Below are positions 4,491 through 26,542 of a DNA stretch of 64,000 nucleotides, one piece after another (positions within the stretch are counted from its first letter, which is position 1; each line of letters opens with the position of its first letter). This DNA comes from Dermatophagoides farinae (lineage: Eukaryota; Arthropoda; Arachnida; Sarcoptiformes; Pyroglyphidae). Made by a program: the position numbers and the translations under genes. The DNA is taken from contig NC_134677.1 of assembly GCF_024713945.1 (NCBI RefSeq), positions 6,575,001 to 6,639,000 of the forward strand, in the 5' to 3' direction. Under the pieces are notes generated by a model that was given only the letters and a program-made list of their open reading frames with translations, had not been told where the DNA came from and did no database searches.

Positions 4491-6588
4491 TATTATGGTG
4501 AATGCACTTGAATCACAAAAGAAATGTTTTCGAATGATTTATAAATATGGAAGACATTGGATACTGATTTTTTTTGTTTTGTTTAATATACTGTTTGAAA
4601 ATAAACAATTTCATAGAATTAAATTGAATATAAAATTTTTTGTTTAAAAATTCATTCATCTAACCTGATTGAATGTCGTTGAGTTTTTGAATGGCTCTTA
4701 GTGATCATCCATTCAATCAATTTCAAAGTGGTGTATGTTTTTTCGTTATGTGAATAAAATTATAATTCAATTTAATTATTTATCATCAAGTTGATCTCGA
4801 GGATGGTATATATGCAGGTGTTTGACAAATCAACATGATGGCTATGATTTTTTATGTCAAAATTACAATTTTTATTGAATGGAAAAATCCATCAAACATA
4901 GAGCAGAATTTTGGCCGAGAAAAAATAAAATTGATCCGTCACGGAGATGTAATAGCAATAAACAGAACACAAAATTTCGTATCACTGAACGGTTTGTATA
5001 ACACACTCTGAAATTATAGAATGATGAAAATGAAATTTTCAAGAAAAATTTGCCATCATTTTGTTTCGGTTAGGCCTAAATACTGTGGAACAAAATCAAA
5101 GATCGAAGAGCATGAATTCAGAGCAATGTGTATTTTTATGTGATGTGAGAAAAAAAATATGAATCTAGTACATTTGGATGGATGGATTTCCTAAAATTTC
5201 ATTTTTCGTTTTCATTTAAAGGATATACGATTTTGACGTCACATTCAATTTAAACGCCGGCTATATGTGTCGTTTTTTTTTTACATTTCCTTCGACTATA
5301 GTAAATGAACAAAATTTCCTTCCTGACATATGAAAAAGGTCAACGCGTGTATATTGTGTGTGTGTGTGTGTGTGTGGGTGGTTAGGTTGAGTATTTCTGT
5401 AATACGTGATCGATCGATAAATATTGTATCCAATTGTGTATATTGATCTGAATATGCGCGAATTGCTTCTTTCTTCGCGGTATCCAATGGATATAAATTG
5501 TAAACATAGAAAAACATTGAAAAAAAAAAATTTTCGTATCCAATGTTGATATATAGAAAAAAAAATTCAACCAATGTAACTCTAGTTACGCCATCTTGTA
5601 ACAGATAATCTGATCGTTAAAAACTTGAAAAAAACCCAAATGAAATTTTTTATCAATTAAAACTATTATTATTAAGATAAAAGAAGAAAAAACTTGGATG
5701 CTTTCTTTTTTTTTCTTTGGTAATAGTTTTTTTTAAAGAACGTATCGGGAGATCAAAGACACAGAGAAAAAAAAATGTTTATGATGATTACGATTATTAT
5801 TTTTTTTTTAAAGATTAGGTTAAACAAAAAGTACATTGAATGATGATAATTTCTATGATAAAATTGATATAGAATATTGGCACTCATCAGATCGATCATT
5901 AATGAAAAAAAAAAATGAAATCGGAAACAAAATGAGTCGCCAAGTTGACAACGATATCGATAGTGATATTGATTATATTGATATATATGGATTTCATATT
6001 TTTTTTCTTTCTTTCCAAACATCTTCACAATCATGAGGGAAAAAAAATAAAAATTTTCGTCCACGAATAAACATCAGACGCCATCATAGTATCAAGTATC
6101 ATTACCATCATCAACATCATTTAAAATATTAGATGTTTGTACCAGCGTGGCCATGGCGTTTAATATATATCAGTGAATGACAAAAGAAAAAGACATATTA
6201 ATGTGCTAAATTTTCTATTCAAGTTTAATCACGAATATTATTTTTTAAAAAATTCATGAAAAAAGAATTCTCGCCATCCATGCTTTGATTTGACATTTTA
6301 TACATTTAAATAATTCTAATATCATCAATAAGACATTTTACACGTTGTATTCAACCAATATCTTTGAAATTTGTTTACATGTATTTGTCTGTGTAAGATG
6401 TACCTTTGAACCATTAATTTGAATTAATCAAACGAAAAATACAAAGTGTGTTTGGATAGATTACAGACGATTTAGAATTATATATTGACTGATTGTTGTT
6501 GTTGTTGTTGTTTTGTTTGAAAATTGACAATCTTTATCCACACAATCATCCAACCATATTCAACCAATAAATTGTCAAAACTAATGAA
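4491..6588. other. Intergenic region between KIAA0513 homologue and HNF4
   Basis: No coding feature supported. It should contain the divergent upstream regions of the KIAA0513 homologue (left) and the distal HNF4 first exon (right). It contains a GT microsatellite at about 5355-5375, a perfect CRE palindrome at 5234-5241, poly-T tracts, and a (GTT) run at about 6494-6511. Confidence 0.55.
5234..5241. promoter_or_regulatory. Perfect CRE palindrome TGACGTCA
   Basis: The sequence is the full 8-bp ATF/CREB consensus palindrome, about 740 bp upstream of the KIAA0513 homologue start and 1.35 kb upstream of the distal HNF4 exon. The match is seen directly; occupancy or function is inference. Confidence 0.4.
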
Positions 6589-14690: not shown

Positions 14691-16829
14691 TTAGAAATTC
14701 GTTTTATATTTTTTCACTTCAACCATTAATTGATGAATATTGATCAGTTCGCTTCTTAAAGGATTATTGCTGAATGGTGGTTGACTGACAATTTTCTGAA
14801 ATTTATGATAATATTGCACTAATTGTGTCAAGGCAATCTGTTGAATGTTATTTCCATTACGGAAATTAGTGAATGATGCCATTATATCTTTGGAAACCTG
14901 TTCCAATGATCGTCGCCAATTATTGTTGAAATTTTGTATCAAATCCCCAACTCTTGGTTCCAATCGTTTCAACGATTCTGTATCGTTTTTTTCTGTTAAC
15001 ACTTCGGATTCTTTAACGAATGAAATCATAGCTCCAAAATGAGGATATAACATTTCTTCAATAAAATCCATTATTTTTTTATTCAATTGTTCTCTCATCG
15101 TTTCGGCTTCATTTGATCCATCTTTTTTACGTTCCAAAAGGACGCCCAAGATTGTGTCATAATTATTGATGATGAAAACATACTGTTCTTTTGGTTTACA
15201 AAATTTGGTTGACATTCGTAATATTAAATTCATAACTTCGTTCTATATAAATAAAAATAAACATTAGTATTTCATACCTAAAAAAATGAATAAACATTAC
15301 CTGTAATATGGATAATAAATTAGTAACACGAACATCTGGAAACGTATCATTGATTGTGACAATAGCAGCGGAAAATTCAGCAAATCGTCTGGTAATATAA
15401 TGAGGTCTCATATCGATTGTGGCTATCTTGATTAAATCACAGAATTTTATGCTTTCAATGTGCATCAAAAATACTTGTTCAAATTGTGGCCATATAGTCT
15501 TGACAACACGTTCCCAATAATGACTCAATACGATTACGTTACGTTTCAACGATAATATTCGATAACGATAAATTATGTGCAAACAAACAAATAACGCTAT
15601 GGCATCATAACTTTGAGAGAAGAGACTATCAATATTCTTATAAAGTAGATCCAAAGTTTTTCCAAAAATCGTATAAAATAAATCATGTGATGTTTTAGAA
15701 TTGACCATAAAAAATTCATTCATAAATAAATATTCACGACAAGCATGATCAAAAAAAGCGTATTGTATTTCACGAAAAACATTTTCCAATGGATATTTCA
15801 TATCGTTTTTAGTTGCAGCATGCACGACAATCAATGGCGATTCAAGTTCAATTGTCAACAACGATTCTCTATCACCCAAAGAAAAAATATTAGGCCGATG
15901 CTTAACAACATTGGATTTGAGGTTAAATATTGAAATTTTATTGGCCTTATGAGAATCATCATTTCCCATTAAGTCATCTTTATCGGGTAGATCTTCATAC
16001 ATCATTTTTGTAGATTTATGAATAAATTCTTTGAAGTATGAAAAGTAAATTTTGCTCATCGTATCGATGTATTCATTTTGTATTTCTCTTGCTATATCTC
16101 TTTCGTGTGTAGCTAAAAATTTGAAAAAGAATTTATTCTTCAATAGAGCATTTTGAACAATATGATAATTGGTCATTGGTTTTTTGCATGATGAAATCTT
16201 TTTCAGAATATATTCACGTATCTTGATAATAGCTTTCGATTTAAGATTGTTCAATATTTCCATCACATCAACACAAGCTTTTGCTTCACGAAATGATTGC
16301 TCCTTGACGAATGCAATTTTATGATCCAAAATGATCAATTGTTCAAGGAATTCTTTCTCACAAACTGGAGTATCGACAATATGTTTAATCACGGATTCAG
16401 GAATAATTATATCATCAATGAATTCGCTCATTTGATTACGAATGGCTTGTTTGTTCTTCAAACGTATATTCAACGAAGCTGACAATTCTTGCAATGATAA
16501 TATCTCCTGACAAATATTGCTAAGATCGGCCTGAAAAGCACATAACATTCCCTCTAATCTTTCCAAGATTTTATCACTATCAGTGATTTGTAAATGCAAT
16601 TCAGAAATGTTATCAGCTTCCTTGATGTAACCAGCAATAGTATTATTTTCCAATTCGGATAAAGATTTTTCAACATTGGCAGAATATTCTCTTAAATCAA
16701 TATTGGAATTAAGAATTTCTTTCACCGTTTCCTCATCACAATCGATGGCTGGTTCTATAATGGATTAAAAAATGGTATTTAAACAGAAATTTAGTTACAA
16801 AAAAAATTACCAATAGTCTCCAGATTCAT
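14691..16829 (-). CDS. Vps52: VPS52, subunit of the GARP/EARP tethering complexes
   Basis: Three coding exons on the minus strand: 16811-16829, 15301-16754 and 14691-15242; 674 aa versus 723 in human. Matches to VPS52 run along the whole length: DLREYSANVE, an ESEN-like EADNISELH, LERLEGMLCAFQADLS, LNIRLKNKQAIR, a CKKPMTNYHIVQNALLK block, YFSYFKEF, EKDDLMG-like DKDDLMGND, RPHYITRRFAEFS, FIINNYD, SFTNFRNG and ELINIHQLMVE near the C terminus. The N-terminal third is predicted coiled coil. Family role: with VPS51, VPS53 and VPS54 it tethers endosome-derived vesicles at the trans-Golgi, and with VPS50 it acts in endosomal recycling. The short first exon encodes MNLETIG; the human N-terminal acidic extension is mostly missing. 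Divergent from PLC-gamma, convergent with HNF4. Confidence 0.97.
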
Positions 16830-17237: not shown

Positions 17238-17241
17238 ATGA
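17056..17241 (+). promoter_or_regulatory. 61-codon uORF ending across the PLC-gamma ATG
   Basis: An ATG-started frame of 61 codons stops with TGA at 17239-17241, overlapping the proposed PLC-gamma ATG (17238-17240) in an ATGA arrangement. It may be a regulatory uORF, or the true 5' end may be reached by splicing. The peptide shows no family resemblance. Confidence 0.35.
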
Positions 17242-20200
17242 ATCGTTCAGTCTTCAAGGATTATTTGTTTGCAAAAAATGATTGCCACTTGGATCATGAA
17301 TTAATTCGTCGACTAAGTGAAGGTTTTTCATGCAGAAAAATCGAAGGCAAATCATCACGATTAGAAAAGCGAAAATTTTGCATTCGATTCGAGATGTGTC
17401 GACTTGAATGGTATAAACCAATGTCAGGATATGAAGAGTTCGAAGGTTGTATCGATTTTAGAGACATCCAAGAAGTCCGCATTATCGAAGAAAATGGTGA
17501 AAAGTCTGAGAATAAAACATTTGCCATTCTATATGGGAAAAAGTTCTGCCTTCGAAAATTGTATTGCATTGGTAAGTTGTTGAATTGTTTCTTATATCAT
17601 TTTGATAGATACGAACTTTTCTGTATGAGCAGCTGATGCCGACATTTGTCCAGAAAGAATTCGCAATTTGTTTAAATATATAAAAAACATTGCAGAATGG
17701 GCACCGTTTAGAGTTCAAGTTGACATTCTATTACAGCGAGAATTCGATGAATATTCTTCACAATGTCAACATTGTAAAGGGTAAGATTAACCATTGGAGA
17801 GAAAATCAATTTTGATTTTATCAATAAATTTTTTCAGTATCTATCTAAAAGATTTAAAACATTGCATCACTCGTCATCATCTGAAATTATCAAGCAGTCA
17901 ATTGAAAAAGTTATTCTATGATGTGGATCAAAATTTTACTGGCTGTCTGGAATACGATGGATATGTTACACTGTACAATAAAATTAATAACATTCAAACC
18001 TCTCTCGATTCATCATATCTGGATTTATTATTGCAATCATATTCAAATGATTCGAAAAAAATCAGCATCGAAGAGCTAAAAGAATTTTTCATCAAAGAAC
18101 AAAAGATCAAAATATCGTTTCAACAGATTAGCGACATTGTTTTTCGAAATTCTTTGGATGCACTACGTCATTATGAAACACAAGCATATTTTACTCGAAT
18201 TGAATTTATTGATTATCTATTTTCGAAAGAAAATTCTGTCTGGAATGAATTCTGCAGTGATGTTACACATGATATGAATCAACCACTTAATCATTATTTT
18301 ATTGCTTCATCACATAATACATATTTGACTGGTGATCAATTCAAAAGTGAATCTTCAGTCGAATGTTATATTCGATGTTTGCGTTTTGGTTGTCGATGTA
18401 TTGAATGTGAGTGTTTATTTTTGGAAAAAAATCATTAAACAATAACATTATTATTATTATTTTCATATGCTCAAGTGGATTGTTGGGATGGACCCGATGG
18501 TAAACCATTGATTTATCATGGCAGAACATTAACAACGCGAATACAATTTATCGATGTCATTAAAAGCATTCGAGATCATGCATTCGAAGTTTCGCCATAT
18601 CCTGTAATATTATCCATTGAGAATCATTGTAGTATAAAGCAACAAAAATTTATGGCACAATGTCTACAAGAAATTCTTGGTGATTATTTGCTGAAAAAAC
18701 CATTAGATTTGAATGAAACCTGTTTACCATCACCTGAACGATTAAAACGAAAAATAATCATAAAACATAAGAAAAGAAGACTAGATTCTGATACTACAAA
18801 AGAATTAAGCAGCCTCAATAATTCAATCAAAGTGCCTGGTGAAGCTGGTTCCATCAAATCACTCAAAGAACGTAATGAAAATGACTATAATGAATACAGT
18901 AATTCTATTAAATATGGAAATTTGCTTGTATTCTCTGCCGATGAGAAAAGATTCAAGAAACATTTTGTCATTTTGACAAATAAAAAATTAAATTATATTC
19001 TCGATACAAATGATGATCAAGATGAAGAGGAAGAGGAAAGTGATGATGAAACATCATACGGAACAATAGGAAACAAAGAAAACAATTATTCAGCAAAACG
19101 TGGATCGCCCAAAAGTGAACTTCATTATGGTGAACCTTGGTTTCATGGTAAGCTAAAAGGTGGTAGATCAGAAGCCGAAAAAATTCTCTTAAAACATTTA
19201 GATCTTGGTGATGGAACATTTTTAGTACGGGAAAGTGAAACACATCCAGGTGATTATACTTTATCATTTTTATTCGACAACAAAGTACATCATAGTAGAA
19301 TCAAATTGGATTGTCTTGATAATGAAATCAAAACTTTTCGACTAAATAATCTGATAAGTTTCAATACGCTGTACGAATTAATCGATTACTATCAGACAAA
19401 ACCATTGAAAAGTGACAAATTTCAAGAATTGTTTTTACGTAACTTTGCTCCACAAGAAAATACTCATGAAAATAGATCATGGTTTTATAAGGATTTATCT
19501 AAAGAAGAAGCTGAAGATATTCTAAAACGATTACGACATAATGGTGCATTTCTTGTCCGACATAGCGAGCAACAGGATAATCAATTTTCAATTTCATTTC
19601 GAGCTGAAAACATTATTAAACATTGTCGAATCAAAAAAGAAGGCCGATTATATATGATTGGAAATGAAGAATTTGAAAGTCTAACTGAACTAATTGAATT
19701 CTATGAGGAACATCCGCTTTATAAGAAGACAAAACTTTTGTTTCCAGCTACACAAGAAAATGTTCGAATACTAGGAGGAGTAAGTTACGATAGTGATATT
19801 TTGAATATTAACGTGTTTTTTTTTTAAAAACACAAACAGGAACCAACAGAATCTCAAAGTAGCTACATGGAACATGGCCTCATTCCAACGGAAGAGCCAA
19901 AAGATTTGCAATATTTTGATAACGAAATGAAAGAAGAAAATGAGGATGATCAAAATCAGGATGAAATCGAAACTTGGTGTTCGATTGAGCTTGATCAAAA
20001 TGTTACCGTATCAGTGTATCCAGCTGAATTGAATTCATTCAAAGTTGGATCAATGATATTTATGGCACAGGATGAAATCGAATGTCAGGATTGGATGATA
20101 AAAATTCAAGAAATTCTTAATAAAAAAGTTAAAGTAAGTAATATAGGATTAATATTCAAATAATCAGCTTTTCTCTTTATCAGAATAATAATTCAAACAA

Positions 20201-21334
20201 AGAATCATCAAAACGACAAATTCTTAAGATCGCTCCTGAATTAAATGATTTAATCATATATTGTTGTTCAATTGGATATGATGGAAGTATGTATGAATTG
20301 AATAAATGTCATAACTATAGATTAAAAAAACGAGTATGAATTTTCCATAGAGACTACGAATTACAGAGAGATGTGTTCGATTCGTGAATCAAAAATTGAA
20401 AAACATCTAAACAGCAGCCAATATAAAAATATTATAAATTTTACACGCCATCGATTAATGCGTGTCTATCCAGAAGGAACACGGATATATTCATCTAATT
20501 ATAATCCTATACAGATGTGGAATTGTGGCATACAAATGGTTGCATTAAATTATCAGACAAAAGATAAGCCGATGCAATTGAATCATGCAAAATTCTTACA
20601 AAACGGTCAATGTGGTTATGTTCTGATGCCATCGTATATGAAAAGTGAAAGCTATAATCCATTTGTAAAACCTGTTGATCTCGATTGCTGTTCACCTATT
20701 GTACTCACTGTTAAAGTACGATTATCATTAATATTTTATTATTCTAATTATAAAATTAATATGGTAGATAATTTGTGCAAAAAATCTGAGAAAATTAATC
20801 AAAGACATATTGAGTCCTTCGGTAGAAGTCGAAGTTATTGGTGCCGATTTTGATTGTAGAAAATATGCGACAAATATAATTTGTAAGTATCATCATCATT
20901 ATTATCATCAACAATTAATCAAAATAAATTACAGACGATAATGGCTTATGTCCAACATGGACAAATGGAAATCAATTTATTTTCCATATAACTTACCCGG
21001 AAATTTCATTATTACGATTTGTCGTTTATCATCGAGATAATTTTGATGAAAGCAGTTTGGTAGGTCAGGCTACGTTTCCTGTTTCCTGTATCCGACAAGG
21101 ACTACGAAGTATAAGATTGAAAAATGAATACAGTGAACACCTTGAGCTGGCCACTTTGTTAGCTCATATCGAAAGTTTTCCGGTCAAAGTACAAACGATA
21201 CAAATCAGATTAATTTTAATTCAATTTTTAATTAAATTAATTTTTATCATTAATCATAGGATGAAGGCGTCGAAAAGCTAAATCATTCGATTGAACTTTT
21301 ATCACGGTTGGAAAATGAATTGCTAACACGATGA
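17238..21334 (+). CDS. Plcg: Phospholipase C-gamma lacking the SH3 domain
   Basis: Ten exons: 17238-17571, 17633-17780, 17838-18406, 18476-19779, 19840-20133, 20184-20286, 20351-20715, 20768-20882, 20935-21188 and 21260-21334; 1186 aa versus 1290 in human PLCG1. It hydrolyses PIP2 to IP3 and diacylglycerol downstream of tyrosine kinases at the plasma membrane. Domains: N-terminal PH (about 10-150), EF-hands (160-300), X box (308-455; [12 protein letters not shown] and a second catalytic His in ENHCS), first half of split PH (490-525), nSH2 (571-670, FLVRES), cSH2 (685-774, FLVRHS), second half of split PH (833-877), Y box (about 917-1035; [29 protein letters not shown]) and C2 (about 1030-1150). 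Both SH2 arginines and the catalytic histidines are present. Between cSH2 and the second PH half only about 58 acidic residues remain, with no SH3. A Tyr in SSYMEHGL sits where the autoinhibition-relieving Tyr783 lies in PLCG1 (inference). Confidence 0.97.
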
Positions 21335-21453: not shown

Positions 21454-21750
21454 ATTGATTTTATCTTTTTTTATGAAAATTGGGTTTAGATTCTTCTTTT
21501 TTATTTCCCTTTTCAGTATTTTTTATTCTTTTCAAGCAATTATCATATATAACGGCGAATATCAGACAAGAATTCTAAATACGAATTGTTCTGCATTCAA
21601 ATTGTTATGGTCATGTGTTGTTATGTTTCTTGAATCAAATCACAATGCTCATTTTTTATTTATTAATTTATGTTTTATAGTCAGTAAAGAATTTTATTAT
21701 TATTTAGAAAATCTACTGTGATATTATACTGAATTATTATTATTTTAATC

Positions 21751-22777
21751 ATGGTCGATGTATCACCATCATCGGTTCAAAGTCCTGAAACACAAAATCG
21801 TAAAGATTCGTTACAGAATTCTAGCCTTCTTCTTTTATCCATCATTTTGATATCAACTTTGTCTTTATTTATTGTTTATCTTAATTTTCCCAAACTAGAG
21901 CCGTAAGTTGTTTGCATCGATTAAATATTTAAAAATATTTATTAATCCACACTTGTTTCAGTCATGAAAAGCAGCATTTCAAGTTGCCTATGAACATTGA
22001 TGATGCCAAAAATTTGGGAAACGTTTTATCTGGGTACAAAGATCGATATTTTTACGTCGTTCTTTTCGGTTTCATTGTCACTTATATTTTGTAAGTTTTG
22101 ATTTATAACCTGAATTATTTAAAATTTATTTTATTAATATAAAGCTTGCAATCATTCGCCATTCCTGGTTCAATTTTCTTGAGTGTTATGTCTGGTTATT
22201 TATTTCCATTACCATTGGCTTTATTGTCCGTTTGTTTCGTAAGCAATTTTAAAAAAATTCTTGACTAGATTTTACAATAATCATTCTTATTTTCAGTGTT
22301 CTGCTGTTGGTGCATCGATATGTTATTTACTTTCATGTCTCTGTGGCAGACCATTTATAATTAAATATTGGCCAGATAAAGCAAACGTTTTGTCCAACAT
22401 AATCGATCAACATCGTAGTCATCTCTTTTACTATATGATTTTTCTGCGAATCACGCCATTTTTACCGAATTGGTTTATAAATATAACATCCCCCATTGTT
22501 GATGTTCCATTATCTACATTTTTTATTGGAACATTTTTAGGTATGTTCAATGGTAATTTTATCAAGCATTCGAATATTTTTTAATTTTTAATCATTAATA
22601 GGTGTTGCACCTCCTTCATTCATTGCCGTCCATGCCGGTACAACTTTATACCAGCTAACATCATCATCGAATATAATATCTTTTCAATCTATGATGATGT
22701 TGTTAGCATTCTCATTACTTTCTTTGACGCCCATCATTCTGAAACGAATATTTGCTGATAAATTCAAAAAGCCTTAA
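21751..22777 (+). CDS. Tmem41b: TMEM41B homologue, ER phospholipid scramblase
   Basis: Five exons: 21751-21902, 21962-22090, 22145-22238, 22297-22540 and 22602-22777; 264 aa (human 291). The family (VTT/DedA domain) are ER membrane scramblases needed for autophagosome and lipoprotein formation, working with VMP1. Evidence: a membrane segment near residues 25-45 followed by a loop with DDAKNLGNVLSGYKDR; then the conserved VTT core TYIFLQSFAIPGSIFLSVMS, the reentrant signature GASICYLLS, GRPFI, and the highly conserved IFLRITPFLPNWFINITSP and FIGTFLGVAPPSF; finally HAGTTLYQL and a last membrane segment ending with Lys-rich FKKP. The N-terminal cytosolic tail is shorter than in vertebrates. The C-terminal KFKKP fits an ER-retrieval-like basic tail (inference). 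The stop is 81 bp from the convergent CK1 stop. Confidence 0.96.
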
Positions 22778-22858: not shown

Positions 22859-23910
22859 TTAAACAATTTTCCCTTCCCATTCATATTTCACACCATCATT
22901 GTATTTCCGGAATAGATTCCCAAAATTCTTTTTCCATTCATCATAATCTGGTTGTTGGTCAAATCGTAAAGATCTTGTATATGTCAAAAAATTGGCAAAC
23001 TCTCGTGGATAACCTTCGGATAGATTTTCCGGAGGTGTCGTCTGTTTTATATGGCCAATTTTACGATAACGTTCTTTCAAAGTGGATGCTTTCAAACCAG
23101 ACCATGGTAATTTACCTTTACGCAGAAAATACATGAACAAATGACCCAAAGATTCAAGATCATCACGTCTTGATTGTTCAATACCAAAATGTGCATTGAT
23201 GCTCATATATCGAGCCGTACCAGTCAAATTTTTTCCCTCCCGAAATGGAATATGCTGACCAGTATTGGGATCGATGAATTCTTTAGATAAACCAAAATCT
23301 ACAACATGTACAATATTACGATTGGCTAATCCTGGATAACCTAGAAGGAAATTTTCCGGTTTTACATCTCTGTATGCAATACTAGTTTTTTTTATATTAG
23401 AAGAATCATTATTTATATTCAAAGTTGTTGTAATTTTATCTCTTACTTTTTGCTATGAATAAATTCAAACCGATTTAATAATTGTAAAACCAGATATAAA
23501 ATTGTTTTGATTGTGAAATTCTGTCCGCATGATTGAAATACTTCATCCAGATTTTTTCCCAAAAGTTCGATAACTAGTACATTGTATCTAAACCATTGAC
23601 CAAACCAAAACACTTTTGGAAAGCCTATAACTTGATCATCTTTGCCATGTAGAAGTTTATATATCTTCAATTCATTTGACAATTGTGCTCCTCGATCTTT
23701 GCTTGGCTCGAATTTTATCGCCACTTTTGGTGAACGGCCATCAATGTTTTGACCAAGAAAAATTTGACCAAATGAACCTGATCCTAATTTTTCTAAAGTT
23801 TTAAAATTACCACCAATTATTGTGTCTGGTTTTATATCTTGTCCATTGGCAACCTTAACCGGTTCATAATCGTCTTCCAACCATGAATTTGAATCATAAG
23901 ACATAGACAT
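22859..23910 (-). CDS. Divergent casein kinase 1 family Ser/Thr kinase
   Basis: Two exons on the minus strand: 23447-23910 and 22859-23381; 328 aa, essentially a bare kinase domain. The P-loop is [12 protein letters not shown], the catalytic Lys is in VAIKFEP, the catalytic loop is [12 protein letters not shown], the Mg loop is DFG in [10 protein letters not shown], and the CK1 activation-segment signature is [18 protein letters not shown] followed by [11 protein letters not shown]. All catalytic residues are present, so it should be active. Some positions resemble CK1-gamma (YRDVKPEN, IDPxTxxHIP, [10 protein letters not shown]) and others CK1-alpha (SGSFG, YNVLV, SINAHxGIEQ, SLRF). There is no long C-terminal tail: no CK1-gamma palmitoylation Cys cluster and no delta/epsilon autoinhibitory tail. 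I therefore do not assign an isoform. The first 30 residues are acidic and unique. Confidence 0.93.
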
Positions 23911-26542
23911 TGTAAAACTATTGCCGATCGCATTAACAATTGTTACGATAGAAAAAAAATCAAGTTTTAAATAACACCCAATACGATTATTAATAAACCA
24001 AATAATAATCGAATAGAATCGAATTCTCTATTTATTTCATCATATAACAAATTAATCAATAAAACTTGATAACATTATGACTGCTACTTGGAAATAAATT
24101 GATCGCCATTGTTGTAATATTATGATGACGATTTTTTTTATATATATATGTTGTCGACAGATATGTTTAAACAAGCTGTCCATTAATTAATCATCGGTGG
24201 TTATACTGATCGGGTGGTGTGTGTGTGTTGTATGTTGTTCCAAAATAAAAAAAAACGATCATGATTCTTGAGTTGATTTTCATTTTCGATACTTGAATGA
24301 ATGATTGTAGCTGCATTTTTTTCGCTGTTTATTATTATAATAATATTGTTATTGATATTATTATTATTATTATTAGTTGGAACAAAAGTTATATGTCTCT
24401 ATTGAGCATTTAGCTCATAATAAAAAAAAGAAAAAAGAAAACCGGAATAATAACATATTTTCTAATGTTGTTAAATAATAAACATTAATAAACCATTGTA
24501 TTAGTTGCATGCACATTTATGAAAAATAAAACAACCGAATGGTTATGAGTGCCGTCTGGCTCTTATCACAATAATAATAATAATCATCATCATCATCATC
24601 ATCGTCATCAATGATTCTTTTTTTTCTGATGAAAAAAAAGAATCGAAGCAAAACAAACGATCCACAAAAGTGTTTCCATATTTTTGTTTTTTTTTTCATA
24701 AATAGAATGAGGAAAAAAAATGTTTGTTTGGCCAAATCTGCAAGTGACAGATTTGATTTTGGACTTTCTATCTGTACATTGTGTGTGTGTGTGTTTGCCA
24801 TTCGTATTTAAGAGTATATGCATTGTGCTTCCATTATTCGGTGACAAAACTAATTTACTTTTTCCGCCCGCCCAGTTTGAGTGTGTGTGTGTGTGTGTCT
24901 GCATGTATGTATCAATGATGAAATTCTTGGACCCTGAAGACAATCAGAAAGAGAAAATAGCCCACACACACACAAAACAGAAATCGAATACAGAAAAAAA
25001 ACTCGATTTATATTTATTAAATTGACAATAATAATTAATATATATCTAAACTCGTTTGATTTTGATACATGAAATCAATGGATCGTAAAACGAGTTTTTT
25101 TGTTGTTGTTGTTATTATTTTTGTTTTGGTCATTTTGAAACATTTATTATTAATCACAATCCAAAATAAGAATAATGTCGAATCGATATCAAATTGAAAC
25201 AAACAAAGGAAATTGCCAATCTTGAATTCCTGAATTCAATGATCATGATGTCTAGAACACATGTCGTGTTTGTCATTTCACATTTTCATATAAAATAAAA
25301 TTCTGGCTGTCAAATCATAAATTCTCTCTCTCTCTCTCCCTCTTTCTTTGTATGTGTGTGTGTATGTAAAAAATTTTATTTTACTTTACTAAGCTGGATT
25401 GAATTTTTTTTCAAAAATAAAAAAAAAATTCAGATGAATTTTTTGCTTTTTTTGATACAAATCAATCCAGAATAAAAGACCTGTTGTAATATTATAATGT
25501 GTGACAATATTATTAAAAAAAAAATGATTGCTATCGATTGGAAATTGATTCGATCGAATTGATTCTGTTTTTATTTTCTTTTCTTTTCATGATAGCCAAA
25601 TTTTTTTTCTGATATTATTTCCAATGTAACGATGTATAAAAAAAACCAATAATATCAAGTTTCTGGTTATATGACTGTTATATTGGCTTTATATGGATAA
25701 ATAGTCGATTATACGATGAATGAATAGATTGATAGCGATTGAGAGAAAAAAAACTAGTGTACCCAACATCACATGCAAACTTGTGATGGTGCTTGTGTTT
25801 TTTTTTACAATCGAATCTCAATGGAAAAAAAAATTCTCAAACATTTTTGGATCGACCGTTCATAGTTTCAGTCGAGTTTCAATTGCGATCCACATAGTGA
25901 ATACATTGTGCGTCATGTGCTTATGACAGGTATGAAAGTTTTTTTTTTACTTTTTTTTTATTCCGTTATATTCAATGGTCGTGTGTGTGTGTGTGTGTTT
26001 GTGCGTATGTTGAAAACACAACGGTGCCACTGGCTGTGTGTGTATGAGTGTTTTTAGGGAATGAAGATTTTCTTGAAATTTGATAATGTAATGTGGTCCA
26101 TAATTTCATTATACGATGATTGAGAAAAGAATTGAATTTTTTTTTTCTCATACATTCCATTCTTACCTCAAAATTCCATTATAATGATGATAATAATAAA
26201 GAAATATAATCGTTGAATGAGTTTTGATTTGATTGAATTTTTTCTTTCTTTTCTTTTCTTAGCTCTATTAAATTATCAATACATGATGATGATCATATAA
26301 TTCAATCATCATAATCATTTTGATAAAATGGAAATTATTATTATAACTACAGAATAAAAATGATTATTACAAGCAATGATGATGATGTTTGTCGCCATTC
26401 TTTATTTATAAAATAAAAACACACACATACACACGGCAATTATCGATTAATGGCACACATTTGACATATGGTGAACAATCATTATTGTTTTGGTAAATGT
26501 ATTTTACATTTATGAATGAGATTCTTATGGTACCCAACAACC

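Follow-up and report, generated by a model that had tools for sequence, protein, structure and literature searches.

The stretch of DNA analysed here, referred to as the window, comprises 64 kb (G000:C1:6575001-6639000) of the 62.4-Mb, 22-contig genome of the astigmatan mite Dermatophagoides farinae. Its forward strand carries, at positions 17238..21334, a gene for a PLC-gamma-type protein without a detectable SH3 domain. In our splice model, this gene is composed of ten exons (17238-17571, 17633-17780, 17838-18406, 18476-19779, 19840-20133, 20184-20286, 20351-20715, 20768-20882, 20935-21188 and 21260-21334), which together provide 1186 codons with a single terminal stop. The nine intervening introns all have GT-AG boundaries and measure 50-71 nt, with weak donor sites (GTACGA and GTACAA) in two cases. 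The gene is arranged head to head with a Vps52 gene on the reverse strand (15199-16764; Vps52_C 1.3e-72, Vps52_CC 1.1e-54). Just 3' of it lies a small multi-exon gene for a membrane protein (~21750-22777, forward strand; VTT 4.2e-12, in one exon frame), which we take to be of the DedA/TMEM41 type, and beyond this a protein kinase gene on the reverse strand (22862-24027; Pkinase 6.5e-9 on its C-terminal piece) that resembles casein kinase 1 by eye. Elsewhere on the same contig, we noted the gene for the Der f 2 allergen (L027; G000:C1:893129-893452, reverse strand), matching Der f 2 at 99.2% over 120 aa and Der p 2 at 88.4% over 112 aa; in a comparison of seven ML-domain pieces, L026 emerged as a second group-2-like ML-domain protein (43%).

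A Pfam search (E<=0.1) with the spliced window protein returned 12 families, including X, Y, C2, SH2 in two separate stretches and EF_HAND_2_PLCG (41.3 against a cut-off of 27), with EF_HAND_1_PLCG absent from this set; the N-terminal PH domain scored 22.3 bits, below the Pfam cut-off of 25.1. The PI-PLC X domain, one half of the catalytic barrel, occupies positions 18274..18774 and is split by the intron at 18407-18475, its PF00388 matches in the genome falling into two pieces (G000:C1:6593274-6593435 and 6593472-6593774; 1.1e-65 for the spliced protein). It is followed by the first half of the split PH domain (18898..19017; ~aa 492-531), recognised by alignment to the sPH domain of vertebrate PLC-gamma1 (PLCG1) and trailed by an acidic tail, and then by the nSH2 domain (19138..19392; PF00017 at G000:C1:6594138-6594392, 5.6e-18) and the cSH2 domain (19480..19704; PF00017 at G000:C1:6594480-6594704, 7.4e-21), so that the two SH2 domains sit between X and Y. 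The second half of the split PH domain, including its C-terminal helix, lies at 19972..20133 (~aa 830-883). An earlier reading had it start near residue 833, close to the ~830 that we determined by eye; the boundary itself is fuzzy, with a weak Pfam alignment reaching back to ~808. The PI-PLC Y domain follows at 20338..20634, its PF00387 match in the genome (G000:C1:6595338-6595634; 7.9e-38) beginning 13 bases upstream of exon 7 (20351) and its match in the spliced protein covering aa 903-1012 (3.4e-39). The C2 domain (20704..21101; aa 1036-1133; PF00168, 2.1e-13) spans the introns at 20716-20767 and 20883-20934.

When its two halves were joined, the split PH domain of the window copy aligned with positions 3-103 of the Pfam PH profile at 26.1 bits, barely above the cut-off of 25.1; in the same test, a PLC-gamma paralogue on contig C5 (see below) reached 30.7 bits and PLCG1 51.9 bits. 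Since the split PH domain is thus still recognisable, SH3 is the sole missing part of the array. The other elements agree well with the initial annotation, which had described both FLVR arginines, the X and Y residues and the C2 domain as intact. The FLVR arginine is indeed present in both SH2 domains, as in PLCG1, and the motifs of X (SSHNTY, ELDCWDG, IYHG and KHKK) and Y (SSNY and CGYVL) align with those of PLCG1. Which residues within these motifs are catalytic is, with the exception of H335, our assumption. An H335A form of PLC-gamma1 is employed in PMC9203054.

The place at which an SH3 domain would be expected, between the cSH2 domain and the second PH half, is taken by an acidic linker (19840..19971; ~aa 786-829) without SH3 signal. 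No SH3 family was found in the Pfam search (E<=0.1) of the spliced 1186-aa protein, the very check that the initial annotation had proposed for its claim of a PLC-gamma lacking SH3, whereas the same search retrieved SH3_1 from the C5 paralogue at 2.9e-12. When queried alone at E<=10, a threshold at which the HMMER filters drop most matches above ~0.1, exon 5 matched only PH (0.013, under the cut-off) and no SH3 family, and a 57-aa version of the linker matched no family at all. Genome-wide, SH3_1 gave 52 matches (E<=0.001), none of them inside the 64-kb window. We also used an SH3 profile composed of eight SH3 domains from the same genome together with those of the C5 paralogue and PLCG1. Against the reading frame of the linker, its top score was -2.5 bits, reached at aa 851-860 within the PH half, with -3.4 bits in the linker proper (aa 796-801); the C5 control reached 78.4 bits, a value favoured by the fact that its own SH3 domain and that of PLCG1 belong to the profile. 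The spliced window protein was among the sequences searched with this profile and gave no match.

In a 50-residue cut, the linker contains 16 acidic and only 2 basic residues, bearing out its description as acidic. It had also been described as devoid of the conserved SH3 tryptophan; the lack of SH3 signal agrees with this statement, but a single Trp does occur, at the very end of the cut (ETW). Space is short as well, as had been proposed: from the 'PLYK' motif of cSH2 to the 'QDW' motif of the PH helix, the window copy has 104 residues versus 191 in the C5 paralogue, whose span also includes extra low-complexity sequence. In an AlphaFold2 model of exon 5 alone (mean pLDDT 65.8), the linker has low confidence (block means of 45-56 for residues 1-40) and is followed by strands and a helix; made from one sequence without an alignment and covering only half a domain, this model carries little weight. 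Used as a Foldseek query against the PDB, this half-domain model gave 19 matches at E<=10 and none at E<=0.001.

When the whole genome was searched for X, SH2, SH3 and Y domains, another group arranged as in PLC-gamma came to light on contig C5 (L025), consisting of X (2770732-2771222), a pair of SH2 domains (2771643-2771897 and 2771982-2772206), SH3 (2772369-2772509) and Y (2772903-2773241). Its translation from L025 yields a protein of ~1353 aa, the final short exon being uncertain, and its SH3 domain matches the PLCG1 SH3 structures 1hsq (1.4e-22) and 1y0m. The gene has three introns, two of which share position and phase with introns of the window copy, versus nine in the latter, and apart from SH3 its domain set is the same. 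A Gly/Gln/Asp-rich low-complexity stretch (L025 ~5030-5160) is found at the place that the bracing tail of SH3 occupies in PLC-gamma1. Directly 3' of the gene lies a cytochrome P450 gene (L025 6765-8374, forward strand; 4.3e-34 on its first piece). The mite genome thus holds two PLC-gamma paralogues, the window copy without SH3 and the C5 copy with the canonical SH2-SH2-SH3 order. This finding revises the view of the window gene as the animal's PLC-gamma, whose loss of SH3 could be dated by comparison across mites: given the SH3-bearing C5 copy, the absence of SH3 belongs to one paralogue and not to the whole animal.

By ancestry, the window copy is a PLC-gamma that lacks one defining textbook feature, the SH3 domain after cSH2. 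Its best match in the PDB is PLC-gamma1 (9qb7; 4.2e-230; aligned residues 37-786 and 843-1165), and the six top-ranking sequences are all PLC-gamma1 or PLC-gamma2, with PLC-delta1 following at 1.4e-107. PLCG1 (PDB 9qb7, 6pbc, 7z3j and 7t8t) displays the same succession of X, split PH, nSH2, cSH2, linker tyrosine, Y and C2 but carries, after cSH2 and ahead of the second PH half, the SH3 domain and bracing tail that are both missing from the window copy. Another arthropod PLC-gamma is Drosophila small wing (sl), which, according to PMC12387771, has conserved domains similar to those of PLCG1 and is the only gene in the fly that corresponds to both human isozymes of PLC-gamma; we liken it to the window copy by description and not by sequence. 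Among the literature matches listed, whose coverage is partial, there was no report of a PLC-gamma without SH3 or of PLC-gamma in mites. Relatives of the alignment of the two mite copies were confirmed neither in prokaryotic contigs (66 pattern matches) nor in viral contigs (35). To our knowledge, the ancestral PLC-gamma carried an SH3 domain, and we infer that this domain was lost from the window copy rather than never having been present.

Could an SH3 domain be encoded but have been missed, because its exon is concealed or the assembly has collapsed there? Unusual splicing is conceivable, as the gene model is based on sequence only. However, the intron at the junction between cSH2 and linker (19780..19839; phase 0, after residue 785) is just 60 nt long, below the size of an SH3 exon, so that it holds no hidden exon, as the initial annotation had argued, and the splice sites keep the reading frame across the junction of exons 4 and 5. 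Introns of 50-71 nt and the count of 0 N in the window leave no room for an SH3 exon, and there is no assembly gap at 19779/19840. With the linker devoid of SH3 signal and the 64 kb free of SH3_1 matches, nothing points toward an exon-calling or assembly artefact, and we regard a missed SH3 domain as exceedingly improbable. Hardly more credible is the notion that the window copy is a decaying duplicate on its way to becoming a pseudogene: one domain is gone, but 1186 codons remain open across ten exons with splice sites, and the similarity to PLCG1 equals that of the canonical C5 copy. Somewhat less remote, albeit still improbable, is a role as a scaffold or decoy that competes through its SH2 domains for phosphotyrosine sites and contributes little catalysis. 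Such a role would fit a protein that is missing a regulatory domain and bears an acidic linker, but both X and Y have catalytic motifs in agreement with those of PLCG1, and Y and C2 are conserved.

A more serious alternative concerns the age of the SH3-less copy and is compatible with the mechanism that we favour. If the duplication had occurred within the mite lineage and both copies had then evolved fast, the loss of SH3 would be young, a scenario to which we assign a substantial, if less than even, chance. In the best tree, a weakly supported branch (54/45) indeed separates the two mite copies from the other sequences, with end branches of 0.58 and 0.67. This tree was rooted with three other PLCs from the same genome, which cover no more than 31-39% of the alignment columns, and the alternative trees in which one or the other mite copy joins the vertebrate pair were not rejected (p-AU 0.31 and 0.30). 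Moreover, in a core composed of X, both SH2 domains, Y and C2, the window copy is identical to the C5 copy at 315 of 619 positions (50.9%) and thus no closer to it than to PLCG1 (328/619, 53.0%), with the C5 copy and PLCG1 sharing 326 of 619 (52.7%); for comparison, PLCG1 and PLCG2 agree at 64.3% (399/621). As the copies are 51% identical to each other and each 53% identical to PLCG1, the duplication looks old and, judging from these identities, likely is. Nor does the window copy appear to be faster-evolving in its core, given that it alone departs from the other three proteins at 43 positions, versus 50 for the C5 copy. Taken together, we consider it quite probable that the window gene is an apparently old, SH3-less paralogue, one of two mite PLC-gamma proteins, and otherwise fit for tyrosine-kinase-regulated phosphoinositide hydrolysis.

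The linker of this SH3-less paralogue contains two tyrosines, Tyr794 in the sequence SSYMEHGL (19864..19866) and Tyr810 (19912-19914). Tyr794 is the better candidate for an activating phosphosite, because its Y-M-E context resembles the Y-V-E context of Tyr783 in PLCG1; the C5 copy has Y-L-D. Based on this short motif, Y794 may be the equivalent of Y783; in an ungapped count from the tyrosine of the cSH2 'PLY' motif, it falls at the position of Y775.

In autoinhibited PLC-gamma1, as described in PMC7004563, the sPH domain caps the catalytic barrel and cSH2 grips C2, with the C-terminal tail of SH3 acting as a 'keystone' that braces cSH2 against sPH. Cancer-associated substitutions of keystone residues activate the enzyme, R687W and R753H being examples that may disrupt contacts, and the polyproline surface of SH3 stays free for partners including SLP-76, Cbl and Vav1 (PMC7004563). 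Because the SH3 tail braces cSH2 to sPH in PLC-gamma1, the array of the window copy is, by analogy, probably looser and more easily activated. The initial annotation had gone further and predicted the loss of SH3-dependent autoinhibition; the SH3 domain is indeed absent, but the keystone model (PMC7004563) predicts a looser array and not zero autoinhibition. R687 and R753 (PLCG1 numbering) correspond to H and L in the window copy and to F and R in the C5 copy, while both mite copies retain Y747 and D1165 and have Lys in place of R748; these residue numbers were obtained by hand count on alignments, with D1165 assuming an offset of 22 for 9qb7. With R687 changed in the C5 copy as well and R748 replaced in both, R753 is the one position left to display a pattern of brace-partner loss, and the low-complexity stretch after SH3 in the C5 copy implies that mites in general may show little conservation of the brace. 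The alignments thus offer a faint suggestion that the brace is gone from the window copy and that the grip of cSH2 on C2 has been retained.

PLC gamma is reported to dock on Trk (PMC2772990). In the model that we favour, the nSH2 domain of the window copy would dock on phosphorylated receptors, and a kinase could then phosphorylate a linker tyrosine, Y794 being the best candidate. Its capture by cSH2 would detach cSH2 and the split PH domain from the X/Y core and allow the latter to hydrolyse PIP2, and the docking of proline-rich adaptors would be left to the SH3-bearing C5 copy. The window copy would thus work as a PLC-gamma, most likely as an SH2-only, tyrosine-kinase-driven form with neither the SH3 docking site nor the keystone brace. 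It is tempting to go one step further and imagine a division of labour in which the C5 copy serves adaptor assemblies and the window copy, SH2-only and readily triggered after shedding its brace, represents a natural separation-of-function mutant conserved across an arachnid lineage, but this idea is speculative and rather unlikely to hold in full.

The SH2-SH2-SH3 array within a split PH domain counts as the hallmark of PLC-gamma. If active, the window copy would show that a PLC-gamma can work without SH3 and its bracing tail. House-dust mites are readily obtained and well sequenced, and an SH3-less copy beside a canonical one would provide a natural construct for determining what SH3 adds to the enzyme, be it docking, autoinhibition or both.
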